Source of the DNA: Toxonevra muliebris
Lineage: Eukaryota; Arthropoda; Insecta; Diptera; Pallopteridae
NCBI GenBank assembly: GCA_963691655.1
Contig: OY829326.1
Location: 22,060,878 to 22,124,877, forward strand
Direction: 5' to 3'
DNA length: 64,000 nucleotides
Below, in pieces: positions 4,245 through 64,000 of the stretch. Under the pieces are notes generated by a model. It worked only from the letters and a program-made list of their open reading frames with translations, did not search any database and was not told the origin of the DNA. Positions within the stretch are counted from its first letter, which is position 1, and each line of letters starts with the position of its first letter. The position numbers were made by a program, and so were the translations under genes.

Positions 4245-5176
4245 ATGGTATGCATTTAAAGCCAAAAACAAAGCTAACAATATTTTTTAAGCCAATACAG
4301 TTCACTACTAGTGAAATTTGCTAACAATGGAATATTTTTTGTTTTCTATAGAAATTCTTCGCTGTTGTGGGACTCGCCCTGGTGGCATGTGTCTACGCTG
4401 ATGTCTCCGAATTATCGGGATACAATTACGACCAACATTCAGCAGGTGGAGGTGGAGGTGGAGGTGGATTCTCTTCAGGAGGCGGAGGTGGATTCTCTTC
4501 AGGAGGTGGAGGTGGATTCTCTTCAGGAGGTGGAGGTGGATTCTCTTCGGGAGGTGGTGAATCAGGATACAATTATCAACAACCTGCTCCAGCCCCAGCA
4601 CCTGAATATCACGCACCAGCACCTGAATATCATGCACCAGCACCTGTACATCATGCACCAGCACCTGTATATCATGCTCCAGCACCTGTACATCATGCAC
4701 CAGCACCTGTATATCATGCTCCAGCACCTGTACATCATGCACCAGCACCTGTATACCATGCTCCTGCACCTGTACATCATGCACCAGCACCTGAATATCT
4801 TGCACCAGCCCCAGCACCTGTATATCATGCCCCAGCACCAGTACATCATGCACCAGCACCTGAATATCATGCACCAGCCCCAGCACCTGTATATCATGCC
4901 CCAGCACCAGTACATCATGCACCAGCCCCAGCACCTGTATATCATGCACCAGCACCTGTACATCACGCACCATCTCAACAATATCTTGCTCCTGCTAGTG
5001 GTGGATCATTCTCCTCAGGTGGGGGTGGAGGATCATTTTCTTCAGGCGGTGGTGGAGGATCATTCTCTTCAGGCGGTGGCGGATCATTCTCTTCAGGAGG
5101 TGGCTCATCTGATTTACAAAGCGATGGCTACAGATACAAAACTGTTCGCCGATTGAGACACAGAAATCGTGCTTAA
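4245..5176 (+). CDS. Secreted Gly-rich / AP-repeat protein with C-terminal GYR motif (two exons)
   Basis: Exon 1 coding is only the ATG (4245-4247). The intron is 4248-4351 (GTATGC..TATAG) and exon 2 is 4352-5176, giving 275 residues. Residues 1-17 are a signal peptide (MKFF..VYA) cut before DVSEL. Then come a Gly block (about 33-68, GGGGGFSS units), an Ala/Pro/His/Tyr block (about 77-213) alternating APVYH and APVHH with a 14-residue (42-bp) period, a second Gly/Ser block, and the basic tail DGYRYKTVRRLRHRNRA, the GYR motif. It is probably a secreted structural protein of a cuticle or matrix type; this is inference from composition. Poly(A) signals AATAAA at 5248 and 5266. Splicing is predicted, not shown, but the same structure recurs in seven other genes here. 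The open frame starting at 4367 misses the signal peptide start; antisense frames here are by-products of the repeat. Confidence 0.88.
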
Positions 5177-10508: not shown

Positions 10509-11448
10509 ATGGTGAGCAAAAAATCTATCTGCGTTCGATTCGTAGATCTGTATATTTATTTACTTGAAATTTGAATTAAAAAAAAAATGTTTTTCCTTGT
10601 AGAAATACGCTGTAGCAATTTTGGCTTTGTGCGCCATGGCCTCCGCCGGTGGAATTTCCAACGATTACCTGCCACCACATGTTGATGAACCTGTAAATGA
10701 GTATTTACCTCCAGTTGAGCACCACCAAGCTCCCGCGCCAGTATACCATGAACCAGCTCCAGTGTATCATGCTCCCGCACCAGTACATCATGCTCCAGCT
10801 CCAGTGTACCATGCTCCCGCACCAGTACACCATGCTCCAGCTCCAGTGTACCATGCTCCCGCACCAGTACACCATGCTCCAGCACCAGTGTATCATGCTC
10901 CAGCACCAGTACATCATGCTCCAGCACCAGTGTATCATGCTCCAGCACCAGTACATCATGCTCCAGCTCCAGTGTACCATGCTCCAGCACCAGTATATCA
11001 TGCTCCAGCTCCAGTTCAGGTGCCCCACAATGACTACTTGCCACCTCAAGTTCATCATGAACCAGCGCCAGTATATCATGCTCCAGCTCCAGTTCATCAT
11101 GCTCCAGCTCCTGTACACCATGCTCCAGCTCCAGTTCACCATGCTCCAGTCTATCATGCTCCAGCACCCGTTCACCATGCTCCAGCTCCAGTATATCATG
11201 CCCCAGCTCCAGTGCATCATGCCCCAGCTCCAGTGTACCACGCCCCAGCTCCAGTGTACCATGCCCCGGCTCCAGTGCACCATGCTCCAGCACCAGTGCA
11301 CCATGCCCCAGCTCCAGTATACCACGCTCCAGCTCCAGTCAGCGAATACTTACCCCCTCAAGTTCATCATGAATCAGCTGGTGAACTCCAATCTGATGGT
11401 TACCATTACAAAACTGCTCGTCGTTTCAGACAGCGTCGCCGCCATTAA
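10509..11448 (+). CDS. Secreted YHAPAPVHHAPAPV-repeat protein with YLP and GYR motifs (two exons)
   Basis: ATG exon 10509-10511; intron 10512-10602 (GTGAGC..TTGTAG); exon 2 10603-11448; 282 residues. Residues 1-16 are the signal peptide (MKYAVAILALCAMASA). The mature start is divergent (GGISNDYLPPH, without DVS). YLPP motifs occur at the N-terminus (twice), mid-protein (NDYLPPQ) and before the tail (SEYLPPQ). Between them are long runs of alternating YHAPAPV and HHAPAPV, a 42-bp period. The tail is DGYHYKTARRFRQRRRH. AATAAA at 11607. Likely an extracellular structural protein. The repeat makes nearly all six frames open, which explains the overlapping frames; only this one has promoter, splice sites, signal peptide and family tail. 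Confidence 0.9.
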
Positions 11449-17422: not shown

Positions 17423-17459
17423 TATAAAAATGAAATCTTTTTGTTTCAAAATATCATTC
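17423..17459 (+). promoter_or_regulatory. Core promoter of the 17.5-kb gene (TATA + initiator)
   Basis: TATAAAAA at 17423-17430 and TCATTC at 17454-17459; predicted start A at 17456, 33 bp downstream of the TATA box. Confidence 0.72.
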
Positions 17460-17519
17460 TTAGTTGTGGCCTCGTGTTGAGCAGCAAACTATTATATTTT
17501 CTCTATACAATAACAAAAA

Positions 17520-18490
17520 ATGGTAAGCTGACTGCAAAAAAGAAACAATCAAAAAAATCAAAGATTCTAATTTGCAAAACTAGAATTAATGATAAATATG
17601 TAAATCTTTTTGTATTTAAAATTTTTAATTTGCTTTTCAATCATTTTGTATATTTGCAGAAATCCTTCGTGATTATATTTGCCTTAGTGGCCGCTGTATG
17701 CGGTGATGTTTCACATTTGGGTTATGACTATAGCCCACCAGCACCAGTTCACCACCCTGAGCCAGTTCATCCAGTAAATACTTATGTTCCCCCACAAGTC
17801 CATCACCAAGCTCCAGCACCAGTGGAACAACCAAAAACCACCTACATTCCCCCAGCACCCGTTCATCATGTAAATCTTCCTGAGCAAGTGCATTACCAAG
17901 CACCAGTACAACAGCCACAAGTACATCACCCAGCACCAGCTCCAGTTGTGCACCAACCACAAACTACCTACATTCCACCAGCACCCGTTCATCATGTAAA
18001 TTTGCCTGAGCCAGTGCGTCACCAGGAACCAGTACAACAGCCACAAAATACCTATATTCCTCCTCAAGTGCATCACCCCGCTCCAGTTGTGCACCATCCA
18101 GCTCCAGTTGTGCACCATCCAGCTCCAGTTGTTCACCATCCAGCTCCAGTTTTCCACCAACCAGCTCCAGTTGTACACCATCCAGCTCCAGTTTTCCACC
18201 AACCAGCTCCAGTTGTACACCATCCAGCTCCAGTTTTCCACCAACCAGCTCCAGTTGTACACCATCCAGCTCCAGTTTTCCACCAACCAGCTCCAGTTGT
18301 ACACCATCCAGCTCCAGTTTTCCACCAACCAGCTCCAGTTGTTCACCACCCAGCTCCAGTTGTACATCACCCAGCTCCCGTTAATACATACATTCCTCCT
18401 GCACCCAAACAAGAATACGAAACTGTTGAAGAACTTACCCCACAAGGTTACCAGACTGTCCGCAAATTGAAGTACAGACTCCGTTTCTAA
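17520..18490 (+). CDS. Secreted VHHPAPVFHQPAP-repeat protein with YIPP and GYQ tail (two exons)
   Basis: ATG exon 17520-17522; intron 17523-17659 (GTAAGC..TTGCAG); exon 2 17660-18490; 277 residues. Signal peptide residues 1-16 (MKSFVIIFALVAAVCG), mature start DVSHLGYDYSPPAP. The N-terminal half has TY(V/I)PP motifs and HHVNLPE blocks. The middle is a near-perfect 42-bp tandem array (HQPAPVVHHPAPVF, 18120-18350), so recently homogenised. The tail LTPQGYQTVRKLKYRLRF is a shortened GYR type. AATAAA at 18589. An open frame runs upstream through the intron to 17441, which would give a false 349-residue product; the promoter, splice sites and signal peptide favour the spliced start. Confidence 0.88.
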
Positions 18491-18747: not shown

Positions 18748-19479
18748 CCACCTTGATCAAAAAGTTCCCGGAATAACCACCGTGTGGCGCTCCCATCGTT
18801 CTGATTTGAGTTCTGTTTTTTTTGTTAATTTGGTACATCTGTTGTTGATATTCCCTCTAAATCTTAGCGTCATAGCTTGACATTTGCAAAAGTTACGTTG
18901 CCAAGAGTACATCTATCTATGTGTGGGTTGGCGATTTTTTACAATTTTATTAAATTGTATTGTATTAAATTTTGCGTAAAAAACGGGTTTAATGGTGCGC
19001 GAACGTTGGAAATGTTGGAAAAGTGTTTCGGCAACGATTCTCTAAAGAAAACGGACGTTTACCATTGTACGAGCGGTTTTTTGGCCAATAACCGAAAACT
19101 AACCATCAGAGAGTATTATTTGGGCATAATGAGGCGTTTGCGTGAAGCAATTCGCCGAAAGAGTCCAGAATTGTGGACAGAAAACTCGTGGTTTTTGCAC
19201 CATGATAACGCACCGTCACACAGTGCAACAAATATCATCCAACAGCCACCGTTATGGGGGGCGTTTCAGCAGCCTAGAGGAAGTAATGGAAAAATCGCAG
19301 GAAGCACTGATGGACATACCGAAAACCGAATATAAAAAATGTTTCGAGGATTGGATCAAGCGCTGGCATAAGTGTGTTGCAGTCGATGGGGATTACTTTG
19401 AAGGGGACAATATAGATTTAGATGAATAAACTTGTACTTTGAATTTTCTGAATATCCGGGAACTTTCTGATCAAGGTGG
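18748..19479 (+). mobile_element. Internally deleted mariner element with intact ends
   Basis: 732 bp flanked by the TA duplication (18746-18747 and 19480-19481). Inverted repeats of about 24 bp match with one difference and begin CCACCTTGATCA. Full mariners are about 1.3 kb, so nearly half is gone. The ends may still be substrates for a transposase from elsewhere. Confidence 0.88.
18877..19429 (+). pseudogene. Mariner transposase remnant, deleted and frameshifted
   Basis: Fragments of a mariner transposase: an N-terminal helix-turn-helix-like piece (ARTLEMLEKCFGND), then, after a deletion, YYLGIMRRLREAIRRK..PELW and the catalytic-site motif HHDNAPSHS. A frameshift near 19200-19330 moves the frame to 19142-19429, which ends with the family C-terminus (KRWHKC..GDYFEGDN). 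The other catalytic aspartates are missing, so it is dead. Confidence 0.8.
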
Positions 19480-23622: not shown

Positions 23623-24366
23623 ATGGTTAGTATTAGCAAAAAAAAAAAAAAAAAAGGAAAAAGAATTGAAAGCACTGAAAAGGATATCAACTTAATTCTA
23701 ATTCCTTATTCTAATTTCTAATATCTACTGTTTTATTAATTACAGAAATTCCTACTTATCGCATTTGCTTTTGTGGCTTGTGTCTACGCTGATGTCAACG
23801 AGCTCGGCTATAACTATGAAGCACCCGCACCCGCACCAGCTCCAGTACATATTCCTGCACCAGCTCCAGCACCAATTGTAGTGCCTAAGAAAACTTATAT
23901 TCCACCAGCACCAGTACATGTTCCTGCACCAGCTCCAGTGCATATTCCTGCACCAGCACCAGTTCATGTCCCTGCACCAGCTCCAGTGCATATTCCTGCA
24001 CCAGCTCCAGTCCATGTCCCTGCACCAGCTCCAGTCCATGTTCCTGCACCAGCTCCAGCACCAATTGTAGTGCCCAAGGCAACTTATATTCCACCAGCAC
24101 CAGTACATATTCCTGCACCAGCACCAGTACATATTCCCGCACCAGCTCCAGTTCATATTCCCGCACCAGCTCCAGTTCATGTTCCAGCACCAGCTCCAGT
24201 CCATGTTCCAGCACCAGCTCCAGTCCATATCCCCGCACCAGCACCAGTCGCACCAAAGAACACTTATATTCCACCACGTGTTGCTCCAGCTCCTTCAGCT
24301 GAGCTTGCTCAAGATGGTTATCGTTACAAGACCGTACGTCGTGTTGTCTACAGACATCGTCATTAA
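23623..24366 (+). CDS. Secreted VHIPAPAP-repeat protein with YIPP and GYR motifs (two exons)
   Basis: ATG exon 23623-23625; intron 23626-23745 (GTTAGT..TTACAG); exon 2 23746-24366; 207 residues. Signal peptide residues 1-16 (MKFLLIAFAFVACVYA), mature start DVNELGYNYEAP. The body is an array of the 8-residue unit V(H)(I/V)PAPAP with a 24-bp period, interrupted by three Lys/Ala-TYIPP blocks. The tail DGYRYKTVRRVVYRHRH is very like that of each unit of the polyprotein at 61.6 kb. AATAAA at 24455. TYIPP links it to the 17.5-kb gene. Probably a secreted structural protein. Confidence 0.9.
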
Positions 24367-32762: not shown

Positions 32763-34420
32763 ATGGTAAGTGAAATTTCTCATTTAAAATAAAAACATGT
32801 ACCAAATATTCTTTCAAAAATGTTTGAAATTTACAGAAACCGCTAAATAATCTTGTAGTGTTGTTCACCATATGCCAATATGCATTTGCAGATGTAACGC
32901 ACTTGTTACAATCCACTCCTACGGAACACTATTATCTACCACCAATAACATCCTCAACGCCAGCACGTGACATTCAAGCTCCATCTACTCAGCACCATCA
33001 AAAATCCAGAGTAGAACAATTAAGACAACAAATCGAAGAGCTTAAATATTCATTGCAAATATTACCTCCCTATCATTCAAAGCCACCTACCTTAGATACT
33101 ACAAAACTACCGCAACACGATCAACACAGTAACGCGCATAATTATGGTTACGGTTTTGATAAAAAGCCAGCAGTGCATGCAATAGGAAAAAAGCAACATG
33201 AAGAAATGTTCAATGTAAATATTGACAAAAAATTCAAGGGGAAACCAAAACAAAGTGATCATTTTAAAATATCAAAACCTAAAGGTATACCAGATCCAGC
33301 ATTACGCTCCCAACCACATTTCTCAACATTATCGCCCACCATATTGGATGTACCAATTAATAATGATAATGTTGAACTTTTTCTACCAGCAGTTTCTCGT
33401 AATAATAATGCTTACTATCAGAAATCATTTATATATCCATATAGTGTAAATTTAAATAATTTACAAACTCAAAGTAGCGAATTGAAGGCTACATACCAGG
33501 AGAAGGCAACAGGGGTCAAAAATCAACTGCAATATCAAAAACAACAGGAAGAAAGTAAAGGGAATTATGTGGAGAAAAAAAATTATGAAAATCAGTTAAA
33601 AACTCATTATAATGATGGAAAATATCATCATCCCACTGCAGCAGGTAGCATTTCTCGTGAAATTAACATACTGCATGAGAATAAAAAACATGAACTTGTA
33701 AATGATGCTAGCGCTCCAGCTCCTGAAGTTATTTATACGCCAGGCGATAACTTAAATGGTGTTGCTCAGAGGAGTAATAATAATAAAAAGAAAGCCGACC
33801 TACATACTGATCTTTCTATCGATTATCATTACCCCGATCATCACAACAATGTGCACTACAATCGTCTTCACTCCGATCATCATCATACTAATCGACATCA
33901 CACTGATTTGCATCACATCGATCTACTTCACACCGATCATCAGAAAGAACTTCACACTGATCATCACACCAATCACCATACTGAACCTCACATCAATCAG
34001 CACACTGATCCTCATATCAATCAACACACCGATCGTCACTCCGATCATCTTCACGCCGGTCATTACAAAAAATCTCATACAGATTATCACACCAATCAAC
34101 ACACTGATCATACAAATCAATACACCGATCATTCCGATCATCATCTTCACACTGATCATAACGAAGCAATTCACACTGGTCATCGCACCAATAAGCAAAC
34201 CGATCAACTCAATGATCTTCACTCCAATCATCTTCACACCGATCATCATCACAGCGATCATAACAATTATTTTCACACCAATCATGACTCCAATTTACAC
34301 ACCAATCAACACAACGATCATCAACATTCCGATTATCACAGCGATCATAGTAGCAGTGATACTGATTTTCGTGATGATGGCTATCACTATAGCAAACCAA
34401 GCATAAAATTTGAATTTTAA
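32763..34420 (+). CDS. Secreted His-rich outlier of the family, 528 residues (two exons)
   Basis: ATG exon 32763-32765; intron 32766-32836 (GTAAGT..TTACAG, 71 bp); exon 2 32837-34420. Signal peptide residues 1-19 (MKPLNN..QYAFA), mature start DVTHLLQS, then EHYYLPP (YLP motif). Residues about 60-82 (VEQLRQQIEELKYSL) could form a short coiled coil. The middle (about 90-320) is hydrophilic and mostly non-repetitive. Residues about 323-510 are an irregular array of HTDHH-, HTNQH- and HSDH-like units, roughly a third histidine. The end is DDGYHYSKPSIKFEF, a GYR-like motif without the basic tail. AATAAA at 34424 and 34449. A metal-binding role is possible from the His/Asp pattern but is inference. 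Confidence 0.87.
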
Positions 34421-47177: not shown

Positions 47178-47826
47178 TTTTTATTTTATTTTATTTTATT
47201 TTTATAACATCCTAATACAGCAAGATTAAAAAAAATATCTTATAATTTATAGTATTAGTCAAAGTGTCTTAAAATGAATAGAACAATTATATAATTGACA
47301 AAACAGAGTATTTAAAAAAAAAAAAAAGTTTGACTTAATTAAGAAAAGTGTTTTAAATTATTAAGAAAAATGTTTTAAAAGACCAATTTTGAATTGCGAT
47401 GCGTTGCTTATTATTTGTAAATGACTAGGAAGGGAGTTCCAAAGACGCATAGTGTAAATAAAATATTGACGTTCAGATGTTAAGTTCGAGTGTTTAAATA
47501 TAATTAAATTATTAGATCGCTGTGAGCGCGTAAAACAAAGTCTTTCAAATAAATAATTAGGCTCCTTAGTGAAAATAATCTTATGCAAAAAAATTAGATT
47601 TTTGTACTTTAGAAAATTGTTAAGGCTAATAAAGAAAATCTGTTTAGCATAGCGCGAGACGTGATCTGTTCGTTTTAATCCATAGATGTACCTGGCAATG
47701 TTATTGTAAAGGACATTCAATTTTCTATTGCTCACAGCGTCACTATTAGCATATATTTCGCAACCGTACAACAAAGTTGGGACCAGAAAAATAAATTTGA
47801 ATTGAAATCGTACCAAGTTGTGCAAC
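47178..47826 (-). pseudogene. 5'-truncated LINE: reverse transcriptase C-terminus with TAAAA tail
   Basis: On the minus strand the frame 47864-47361 has the layout of the C-terminal end of a non-LTR retrotransposon reverse transcriptase: VPTLLYGCEIYAN, then KLNVLYNNIARYIYGLKR and, near the end, MRLWNSLPSHL..FK. After the stop come about 150 bp and a (TAAAA)n tail (47178-47206 on the plus strand). The catalytic domain and endonuclease are missing. The first 15 or so codons of the frame belong to the adjoining fold-back element and not to the LINE. Confidence 0.78.
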
Positions 47827-47827
47827 A

Positions 47828-47974
47828 TGACCAAAAACGGTATTTTCAGGGGTTTCAACCCCATTTTTCTAAAACGTGACGTAATGGAAAGTTTTTGACC
47901 TCAGATTCATGTTCAGCATGAAAAATTCATTCGCAAACACTAGGAACAATTCACCAAACCCATGCAGGACAGTG
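47828..47974. mobile_element. Half copy of fold-back family FB1
   Basis: Right arm only, from GACCAAAAACGGTATTTTCAGG through AAAACGTGACGTAATGG to the terminus CATGCAGGACAGTGT. It abuts the 5' break of the LINE fragment, so one inserted into, or recombined with, the other. Confidence 0.7.
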
Positions 47975-61489: not shown

Positions 61490-61524
61490 TATAAATACCA
61501 CAAAGTTTTCTGGATTCTTCATTA
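61490..61524 (+). promoter_or_regulatory. Core promoter of the polyprotein gene (TATA + initiator)
   Basis: TATAAATA at 61490-61497 and TCATTA at 61519-61524; predicted start A at 61521, 31 bp downstream. Leader of about 44 nt to the ATG at 61565. Confidence 0.72.
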
Positions 61525-61564: not shown

Positions 61565-63049
61565 ATGGTAAGCTTAGAGGGTCCTCTTTATTTACTTTAT
61601 TTTTTGTTTTTTGGTCTTTTGTAATATATTGTATATTATTGAAATATTTTGAGTTGAATTTTTAAAATTTACATTATTTTTCGTTTCGTTTATTTTTAGA
61701 AATTCTTCTTAATTGCCTTTGCTGTTATAGCAGCAGTAGCTGCTGATGTCAGCCATTTGCCTTCCAATGAATACTTGCCCCCAGTACAAGAGGCTCCAGT
61801 TGCTGCCCCAACCAACGAATACTTGGCACCAGTTTACGAGGCTCCAGTTGAAGCTGCCCCAGCTCATGAGCTCGCTGATGATGGTTATCGTTACAAGACC
61901 CATCGTCGCGTTGTCTACCGTCGTCATCGTCGTGATGTCAGCCATTTGCCTTCCAATGAATACTTGCCCCCAGTACAAGAAGCTCCAGTTGCAGCCCCTA
62001 CCAACGAATACTTGCCACCAGTGCAATCAGCTCCAGTTGAAGTTGCCCCAGCTCATGAACTCGCCGATGATGGTTACCGTTACAAGACCCACCGTCGCGT
62101 TGTATACCGTCGTCATCGTCGTGATGTCAGCCATTTGCCTTCCAATGAATACTTGCCCCCAGTACAAGAAGCTCCAGTTGCAGCCCCTACCAACGAATAC
62201 TTGCCACCCGTGCAATCAGCTCCAGTTGAAGTTGCCCCAGCTCATGAACTCGCCGATGATGGTTACCGTTACAAGACCCACCGTCGCGTTGTATATCGTC
62301 GCCACCGTCGTGATGTCAGCCATTTGCCATCCAATGAATATTTGCCCCCAGTACAAGAGGCTCCAGTTGCTGCCCCAACCAACGAATACTTGGCACCAGT
62401 TTATGAGGCTCCAGTTGAAGCTGCCCCAGCTCATGAGCTTGCTGATGATGGTTACCGTTACAAGACCAACCGTCGCGTTGTATACCGTCGCCACCGTCGT
62501 GATGTCAGCCATTTGCCTTCCAATGAATATTTGCCCCCAGTTCAAGAAGCTCAAGTTGCAGCCCCAACCAACGAATATTTGCCACCCGTGCAATCAGCTC
62601 CAGTTGAAGTTGCCCCAGCTCATGAACTCGCCGATGATGGTTACCGTTATAAGACCCACCGTCGCGTTGTATACCGTCGTCATCGTCGTGATGTCAGCCA
62701 TTTGCCATCCAACGAATATTTGCCCCCAGTACAAGAAGCTCAAGTTGCAGCCCCAACCAACGAATACTTGCCACCCGTGCAATCAGCTCCAGTTGAAGTT
62801 GCTCCAGCTCATGAACTAGCCGATGATGGTTACCGTTACAAGACCCATCGTCGCGTTGTATACCGTCGTCATCGTCGTGATGTCAGCCATTTGCCATCCA
62901 ACGAGTACTTGCCCCCAGTACAAGAAGCCCCAATCCAGGAAGCTCCAGCACCAGTATCATTTGAGGTTGAAGCTGCACCAGCTCATGTACTTGCCGATGA
63001 TGGTTACCGTTATAAGACCCACCGTCGCGTTGTCTATCGTCGCCATTAA
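61565..63049 (+). CDS. Seven-unit GYR/YLP polyprotein with furin-type RHRR sites (two exons)
   Basis: ATG exon 61565-61567; intron 61568-61699 (GTAAGC..TTTTAG); exon 2 61700-63049; 450 residues. Signal peptide residues 1-16 (MKFFLIAFAVIAAVAA). The rest is seven units: six of exactly 63 residues (189 bp, starting at 61745, 61934, 62123, 62312, 62501 and 62690) and a last one of 56 (from 62879). Each begins DVSHLPSNEYLPPVQEA, has a second NEYL(P/A)PV block in units 1-6, then AHELADDGYRYKT(H/N)RR and VVYRRH. Units 1-6 add RR, making RHRR before the next DVSH, a match to the furin site R-x-K/R-R. Units 1 and 4 share a YEAPVEAAP variant; units 2, 3, 5 and 6 have QSAPVEVAP, so blocks were duplicated or exchanged. 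AATAAA at about 63167. Processing into separate peptides is inference. Confidence 0.93.
61745..63046 (+). repeat. 189-bp coding tandem repeat, seven units
   Basis: Six full units and a shorter last unit, very similar at the DNA level including synonymous sites, a sign of recent duplication or gene conversion. The period is a multiple of three, so frames in other phases also stay open (for example the one from 61746) but have no signal peptide or splice context. Confidence 0.9.
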
Positions 63050-63526
63050 TCATCATCATTTAAGTGAAGACTTGTTAAGTGTCAAGTGATCGACTTGCTC
63101 TCTTTTTTGAGTGCAATACGTAGTATTAGGAATGTTTTCATTATCATTGCAAAATAATTTTCAAAAAATAAAAAATAAACTTGTGAATAGAAATTCACCA
63201 AAATAATAAAACTCATGTGCAATTTTTTCTAAAAACTTACCACATAATTGTAAAACGAACAGCATATTTTCAGTTTCGTATGGAAAAATGAAATCAGCCA
63301 GCTGCTTCTAACAGCTTCTTAACCTGAAATAGAATCTTCTTCTTTTTAGTTGATTTATCTCGCCAAATTAAATTGCATTGAATAATAATATGTCTTGTTC
63401 AATGTTCAACTTTCTATCAATAGACAACATAAAAATTATTGTCACCTAACCGGCTTGCAAAACTACATTTAGTATCGATTAAATTAAATGCAGATTGAAA
63501 GTGTTTTGCATAATCAAATAGAATCC

Positions 63527-63606: not shown

Positions 63607-64000
63607 ATGGTTAGTTGGATTGTGCAAAAGTGAATTTCTAATGGAAACTAAATATTAATACTTTTATTTTTCACCTCTTTAGAAATTCCTATTATTGGTC
63701 GCTTTCGTCGCTGCAGCTACGGCTGATGTCAGCCATATAGCAAACAACTACTTGCCACCTCATCATCATGCTGCATCAGCACCAGAACCACAATATGTTG
63801 CACCATCCTACCACGAAGAGGCTTCCGCTCCAGCTCCAGTCTTCCATGCTGCTGCTTCTGCTCCCGAGGTAGCCTACAGTGCTCCAGCTCCTGCTCCAGT
63901 CTATCACGCTCCAGCTCCTGCTCCAGTCTACCATGCTGCTGCTGCTGCTCCTGCTCCAGTATACAGTGCTCCAGCTCCTGCTCCAGTATACCACGCACCA
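63607..64000 (+). CDS. Secreted AP-rich family member, 3' end outside the window (two exons)
   Basis: ATG exon 63607-63609; intron 63610-63682 (GTTAGT..TTTAG, 73 bp); exon 2 from 63683, open to the window end (107 residues seen). Signal peptide residues 1-15 (MKFLLLVAFVAAATA), mature start DVSHIANNYLPPHHH with a YLP motif, then APAPVYHAP- and AAAAAPAPVYS-type repeats. The start is nearest to that of each polyprotein unit (DVSHLPSNEYLPP), so the two neighbours are probably a tandem duplication. A GYR tail is expected beyond 64000. Minus-strand frames at 63729-63998 are shadows. Confidence 0.88.

Follow-up and report, generated by a model that had tools for sequence, protein, structure and literature searches.

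The window analysed here, a stretch of 64,000 nucleotides from the fly Toxonevra muliebris, contains close to its right-hand end a gene on the forward strand (61565-63049) that codes for a product of 450 amino acids. The coding part of exon 1 consists of the ATG (61565..61567), with a GTAAG donor directly after it, and a putative GT...AG intron of 132 bp (61568..61699) would join this codon in frame to position 61700, giving MKFFLIAFAVIAAVAA, with exon 2 extending from 61700 to 63049. A TATA-like box, TATAAATA (61490..61497), lies 75 bp 5' of the ATG and is a putative assignment based on its position. The stop codon TAA (63047..63049) is followed by a first candidate polyadenylation signal AATAAA at 63167..63172, and further copies of AATAAA are found at 63174 and 63205. 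The product starts with a putative signal peptide of 16 residues, called by eye from a hydrophobic N-terminal stretch that ends in ...AAVAA; after the initial ATG, the remainder of this peptide (KFFLIAFAVIAAVAA) is encoded by 61700..61744. The mature chain of 434 residues is accounted for in full by seven units, six of 63 residues and a last one of 56, and with the splice proposed here every unit sits in a single open exon, 61700-63049.

The first six units occupy 61745..61933, 61934..62122, 62123..62311, 62312..62500, 62501..62689, and 62690..62878, and the RHRR codons with which they end are located at 61922-61933, 62111-62122, 62300-62311, 62489-62500, 62678-62689, and 62867-62878, respectively. 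Two types can be distinguished among them, with units 1 and 4 belonging to type A and units 2, 3, 5, and 6 to type B. The seventh unit (62879..63046) is divergent in its middle and ends in VVYRRH, without the RR that is found at the internal junctions. All seven units begin with DVSHLP and all six internal junctions read VVYRRHRR-DVSH, which places a convertase consensus at regular spacing along the chain, while DVSH also stands directly after the putative signal peptide. The motif R-x-K/R-R is cleaved by furin-type convertases in the secretory pathway. An earlier note on this DNA had given the same coordinates, length of the mature chain, unit lengths, DVSHLP starts, and RHRR-D junctions, all of which can be read from the sequence, and its remark that the presumed signal-peptide exit coincides with the start of a unit was confirmed for this gene. 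The repeat was also recovered independently by Tandem Repeats Finder, with a period of 189 bp, 6.3 copies, and 92% matches.

The first six units had been described in the earlier note as exact. This is true of their length, but not of their sequence, given that in pairwise comparisons 57-63 of 63 residues and 167-185 of 189 bases are identical. For unit 7, 47-48 of the 56 residues are the same as in the other units. Among units 1 to 6, six codons differ in amino acid and 20 differ synonymously only, and synonymous variation at R60 and H61, within the RRHRR stretch, leaves the protein unchanged. Pairwise NG86 estimates between units give a dN of 0-0.06 and a dS of 0.09-0.39, indicating that silent changes have accumulated between the copies while the protein sequence was kept. 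The mean identity of the units is 89% inside the window protein versus 77-81% to five other flies, a comparison from which the D. melanogaster protein is absent because DVSH splitting left no unit within the permitted length range. When the residues of one unit were shuffled, any R-x-[KR]-R appeared in 6% of 20,000 shuffles; for the junction sites, conservation across species is a stronger control than this one.

In Pfam, the protein matches PF02756 with 159.1 bits against a cut-off of 20.6 and PF02757 with 123 bits against a cut-off of 25, in seven stretches each. The 450 residues hold 11 YLPP, 2 YLAP, and 7 GYRYK, and every unit has one GYRYK along with YLP or YLP-like motifs, of which there are two in units 1 to 6 and one in unit 7. 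Neither CPR (PF00379) nor Tweedle (PF03103) is found among the Pfam matches of the window protein up to E 0.1, and a PDB sequence search with this protein returned no match at E 0.01. PF10014 (2OG-Fe dioxygenase) and PF07546 (EMI) passed the whole-protein cut-off, but this was achieved by no single stretch and, for this reason, both scores were treated as chance inflated by the repeats. PF10014 is also listed for many database relatives, where it is probably a false annotation arising from repeat inflation. A type-B unit without its final RR has 61 residues, including five tyrosines and nine prolines, and a mass of 6.9 kDa. Leaving His out of account, its net charge is -8 for residues 1 to 47 and +6 for the remaining 14. 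The AlphaFold model, obtained with an alignment of 13 sequences, has a mean pLDDT of 40, and its sole element is a helix at residues 2-15. The GYR and YLP motifs have been linked to cuticle and other matrices (Cornman 2010, PMC2932725), and in Anopheles, according to the available text of PMC5395146, 10 of the 11 GYR/YLP cuticular proteins recovered were found solely in the final insoluble pellet. Together with the neighbouring genes, these motifs suggest that the units may have a matrix role.

The window also contains several single-copy genes whose products look secreted and combine AP or Gly repeats with a GYR-like tail at the C-terminus; they are clustered at 4352-5176, 10621-11448, 17441-18490, and 23746-24366. 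The contrast that had been drawn between the seven-unit gene and such neighbours holds. Among the five complete neighbouring frames examined, R-x-[KR]-R is absent from four (4367-5176, 17441-18490, 23773-24366, and 32858-34420), and in the fifth (10621-11448) RQRR occurs only at the extreme C-terminus. The next gene (63609-64000) is partial at the edge of the window; in its exon 2, which starts at 63683, MKFLLLVAFVAAATADVSHIANNYLPP... precedes AP-rich repeats, its mature start is DVSH, and no convertase motif is found in the visible part. The cluster of neighbours resembles the clustered low-complexity genes described for Drosophila 3L. The open frame at 32858-34420 codes for 520 residues rich in His, Asp, and Thr, with 'HTDHH' repeats and DGYHYSKP near its end, and matches nothing in Pfam at E values up to 0.1. 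At 18877-19335 there is an open frame of 152 residues with HHDNAPSHSA, reminiscent of a mariner-type transposase. A frame of 167 residues on the reverse strand (47361-47864) is reminiscent of a non-LTR retrotransposon protein in its C-terminal part.

Relatives were collected with two protein searches, a method that favours close relatives. With the window protein 215 database proteins passed, of which the best 120 were analysed, and from the second search (best 120 of 160) 111 further proteins were analysed from the matches listed. In both searches the named relatives among the matches listed are flies throughout, some rows being nameless. They belong to Drosophila and its relatives, Musca, Stomoxys, Haematobia, Calliphora, Lucilia, Cochliomyia, Sarcophaga, Glossina, tephritid fruit flies, Teleopsis, hoverflies, Megaselia, and Condylostylus, the last of these a dolichopodid (Brachycera, Eremoneura). 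All of the best 120 of the 215 relatives are multi-unit proteins, with 4 to 14 GYxYK cores each and 43-173 residues between GYR cores, which makes this layout the rule among the listed relatives, with a copy number that varies. A multi-copy precursor is therefore not unusual here, contrary to what the earlier note had expected. The search for fly orthologs and their unit counts that it had proposed led to multi-unit relatives in many flies, such as Q9VZB4 (RE16136p) of D. melanogaster, which has five units, four RRHRR-D junctions, and the C-terminus VVLRRH. Six short relatives were also found. Three of them (P0123, P0124, and P0125) look complete and single-unit, all without R-x-[KR]-R, while P0121 and P0126 resemble truncated models of multi-unit proteins, and there are two units in P0122.

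It is clear that the junction sites are under strong evolutionary constraint. In the best 120 of the 215 relatives, R-x-[KR]-R with a non-basic residue (not R, K, or H) after it stands at 872 of the 880 internal junctions; the P1' residue is D in 858 of these 872, and P2 at the sites found is always R and never K. In the 111 further proteins from the matches listed, the motif, again with a non-basic residue after it, is present at 298 of 300 internal junctions. The frequencies at the individual P positions were determined for 877 junctions of the best 120 relatives by anchoring on the downstream residues and not on the motif. This gave R at P4, P2, and P1 in 98.5%, 98.3%, and 97.9% of the junctions, respectively, and at P3 H (49%), Q (23%), N (15%), K (6%), and R (5%). 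Such a pattern, near-invariant at P4, P2, and P1 and variable at P3, matches the requirement of a furin-type enzyme. In the last tails of the same proteins, where no cut is required, the motif is present in 25 of 118 and absent from 93, two of the 120 proteins being excluded because their tail exceeds 30 residues. In the second set it is present in 15 of 102 last tails, some of which belong to apparently truncated models, with 8 excluded as too long. In the 35 proteins with at least two RxRR-DVSH sites, the motif is found at 207 of 211 internal positions versus 2 of 35 terminal ones. Outside the stretches of 20 residues that follow the GYRYK cores, R-x-[KR]-R occurs 15 times in 42,228 residues, and 13 of these occurrences lie within 60 residues of the start of a protein. 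The claim of the earlier note that one transcript would give rise to seven secreted copies released by a convertase is well supported by this conservation, with the motif at 872 of the 880 junctions between units and in 25 of the 118 last tails.

The site is missing at eight junctions in the first set and at two in the second, and all ten were kept in the counts. The junctions concerned in P0015, P0058, P0076, P0084, and P0109 enter an apparent second signal peptide and, therefore, look like the product of fused gene models; these public models appear to join neighbouring genes of the family. The remaining cases of the first set are P0057, which is apparently frame-shifted, and P0005 and P0052, which are apparent true exceptions. 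In the second set, P0228 enters an apparent second signal peptide and P0143 is without explanation.

Given that the units of one protein evolve in concert and that the species are not independent, the raw junction counts amount to fewer tests than their size would imply. Because of this concerted evolution, a paralogue called CG11131 in D. busckii was chosen, whose four units are clearly unlike one another. With the D. mauritiana protein as query and the junctions masked, 66 of 237 proteins were selected, and R was found at P4, P2, and P1 of all three junctions in 100% of them (65, 65, and 66 sequences, with gaps set aside). At the same junctions the conservation is 92%, 80%, and 74% for P3 and 48%, 73%, and 100% for P5, versus a column mean of 72%. 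In this alignment 33 of the 230 columns reach at least 99%, and the chance of nine columns named beforehand all being among them is 9e-9, a value that is optimistic through shared ancestry, some of the 66 sequences being other paralogues or isoforms. The non-independence of units and species is answered only in part by this set.

The ends of the predicted products were also compared. The C-terminus of unit 7, VVYRRH, is the end of an internal unit minus RR. Once cut, the internal units would end in ...RRHRR and not in YRRH, unless a carboxypeptidase removes the RR. Measured against the modal internal P1 in 118 of the best 120 relatives, the last tail is shorter by two residues in 54, by one in 26, and by three to five in 4, while in 34 it is equal or longer. 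The last residue of the precursor is H in 78 of the best 120 of the 215 relatives and R or K in 2, and in 24 of the 25 last tails that bear the motif only one or two residues follow it. At the other end of the protein the outcome depends on the class of the unit start. The signal-peptide exit is the same as the internal start in 21 of 29 proteins of the DVSH class, in 1 of 28 of the DVSE class, and in 0 of 56 of the DVNE class, while a convertase motif before unit 1 is found in 3 of 29, 14 of 28, and 0 of 56, respectively. Seven proteins of minor classes have neither a matching start nor a convertase motif before unit 1, and a cruder test of N-terminal matching gave 24 of 120 (best 120 of the 215 relatives). 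This suggests that trimming and the matching of ends may hold for the class of the window gene, and would be no law of the whole family.

Taking these observations together, we consider it likely, though well short of certain, that the gene encodes a polyprotein processed by a convertase, in which a signal peptide and six RHRR cuts, followed by trimming of the RR, would yield seven disordered matrix peptides. Removal of the signal peptide would expose DVSH, and a furin-type proprotein convertase of the secretory pathway would then cut after R-H-R-R at the six junctions, exposing DVSH each time. A carboxypeptidase may subsequently strip the C-terminal RR, a step that is less certain, and the internal units would then end in VVYRRH like the last one. 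The resulting peptides, of about 6.9 kDa in the case of a trimmed type-B unit, are predicted to be disordered, with a basic tail after an acidic body that is rich in proline. Their tyrosines and the opposite charges of their ends would make them small cross-linkable blocks, most likely of the cuticle or of a related apical matrix. Given that the sites are nearly always kept in the related fly genes, cleavage of the protein into small blocks rich in tyrosine is very probable. This points to a large candidate family of polyproteins, conserved in many flies including Drosophila melanogaster and apparently unrecognised so far. If the cuts occur, relatives that are annotated as long 'extensin-like' or 'titin-like' chains would in fact give rise to matrix peptides with masses of a few kDa, and cuticle proteomics, cross-linking, and convertase mutants would have to be read differently.

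The sites could also be used for secretion or timing and not for the supply of free peptides, in the sense that cutting would prevent the intracellular assembly of sticky repeats and permit their export. In C. elegans, the furrow collagens DPY-7 and DPY-8 stay in the cell when their furin site is mutated, as stated in the available text of PMC13225626, and BLI-4 appears to process many cuticle collagens, according to that of PMC11304992. The collagen site is, however, described as lying near the N-terminus or just past the transmembrane domain (PMC11304992). In the present protein a site is found at every unit boundary and, therefore, cutting would free every unit, unlike what happens in the collagens. 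We regard this explanation as rather unlikely, and it is compatible with the release of matrix peptides, since both can hold.

It is also conceivable, and in our judgement improbable, that the chain stays whole, the basic RRxRR-D acting as a structural or binding element and the copy number setting the length and the cross-linking valency. In the available texts of PMC2932725 and PMC9612446, GYR/YLP repeat proteins are discussed without cleavage. Furthermore, the single-copy relatives also have a basic GYR tail, and concerted evolution, seen in the identity of 89% within the protein versus 77-81% to five flies, by itself makes the repeats alike. Nonetheless, a basic patch with a structural role would not predict fixed P4, P2, and P1 beside a free P3, nor the absence of the motif from 93 of 118 last units and from the three single-unit relatives that look complete. 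As for a hormone or neuropeptide type of precursor, with released units that act on receptors, a signal peptide and repeated peptides between basic sites are its usual layout, but such a function is very unlikely here because the amidation glycine that is common, though not obligatory, before the basic site of neuropeptide precursors is missing (RR is preceded by H in all six window junctions and by H, Q, N, K, R, P, S, Y, or L, never G, in the 872 junctions of the best 120 relatives), the units of 56-63 residues are predicted to be disordered, are rich in Pro and Tyr, and carry GYR/YLP, their length is free to vary (43-173 residues between GYR cores in the best 120 of 215 relatives), and the gene adjoins AP- and Gly-repeat genes.

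The reading as a polyprotein that supplies matrix peptides can be compared with several known systems. The gene is like the GYR/YLP proteins (PF02756, PF02757; PMC2932725) in having both motifs above the Pfam cut-off, a putative signal peptide, and a place among clustered low-complexity secreted genes. The available part of PMC2932725 describes proteins of cuticle and matrix that bear these motifs, and the words 'furin', 'cleav', 'polyprotein', and 'convertase' have no occurrence in its main text. Among the titles and abstracts listed in a search for links between furin and cuticle proteins, repeats, or polyproteins, in a collection that includes only a minority of subscription papers, none concerned furin processing of GYR/YLP proteins, and convertase processing of the fly repeats is not known to have been reported. 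A search by Drosophila gene number gave nothing on processing among the matches listed, and one with the peptide strings of the units found no paper.

The nematode epicuticlin Asu-EPIC-1 has the same plan as the fly gene, with a signal peptide and seven tandem, disordered, tyrosine-rich GYR repeats of 49-51 residues, whose RKKR or RRKR boundaries likewise fit R-x-K/R-R (PMC9612446). In the available text of the same study, Asu-EPIC-1 is likened to a YLP/GYR protein of D. grimshawi with 15 repeats, and dityrosine linking is proposed at comparable tyrosines of the epicuticlins. Where the fly units have YLP, the epicuticlin has YGD, which is absent from the 450 residues of the window protein with its seven GYRYK; the likeness is one of layout. 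The terms 'furin' and 'cleavage' have no occurrence in the available text of PMC9612446, and in that of PMC11529277, on the C. elegans EPIC proteins, 'furin' is absent and 'cleav' occurs once, concerning the signal peptide. It may be, although we hold this only tentatively and as the less likely outcome, that in flies and nematodes alike the GYR-repeat matrix proteins are tandemly repetitive polyproteins processed by convertases. Part of the cuticle of moulting animals would then consist of numerous short modules, disordered and rich in tyrosine, that are released by proprotein convertases, and the activity of these enzymes, known to gate the cuticle collagens of nematodes, would also control the supply of the modules. 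If so, the RKKR/RRKR boundaries of the Ascaris epicuticlin, described as a hydrophilic stretch in the available text of PMC9612446, would be sites of the same kind.

A likeness in layout, with no sequence relation claimed, is also found in the Rep1-type proteins of the fungus Ustilago. Kex2 is a member of the furin family. In the Rep1-type proteins, repeated secreted peptides are freed by Kex2, and some of the fungal repeat peptides processed in this way have a structural role at the cell surface, according to the available text of PMC6339444.

Lastly, the regular spacing of furin-like K/R-x-K/R-R sites between similar units and the few or no introns in the repeats are shared with the ABA-1 polyprotein allergens of nematodes and with filaggrin, in which the units are trimmed after cutting (PMC3079579). 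Such tandemly repetitive polyproteins are termed rare, and their adaptive value mysterious, in the available text of that study. The units of ABA-1 are folded lipid-binding proteins, whereas those of the fly protein are predicted to be disordered and carry GYR/YLP. With units that fill the whole mature chain, a single open exon, and regularly spaced convertase sites, the fly gene has the features of a tandemly repetitive polyprotein and would be expected to work like one, its units being predicted to be released.
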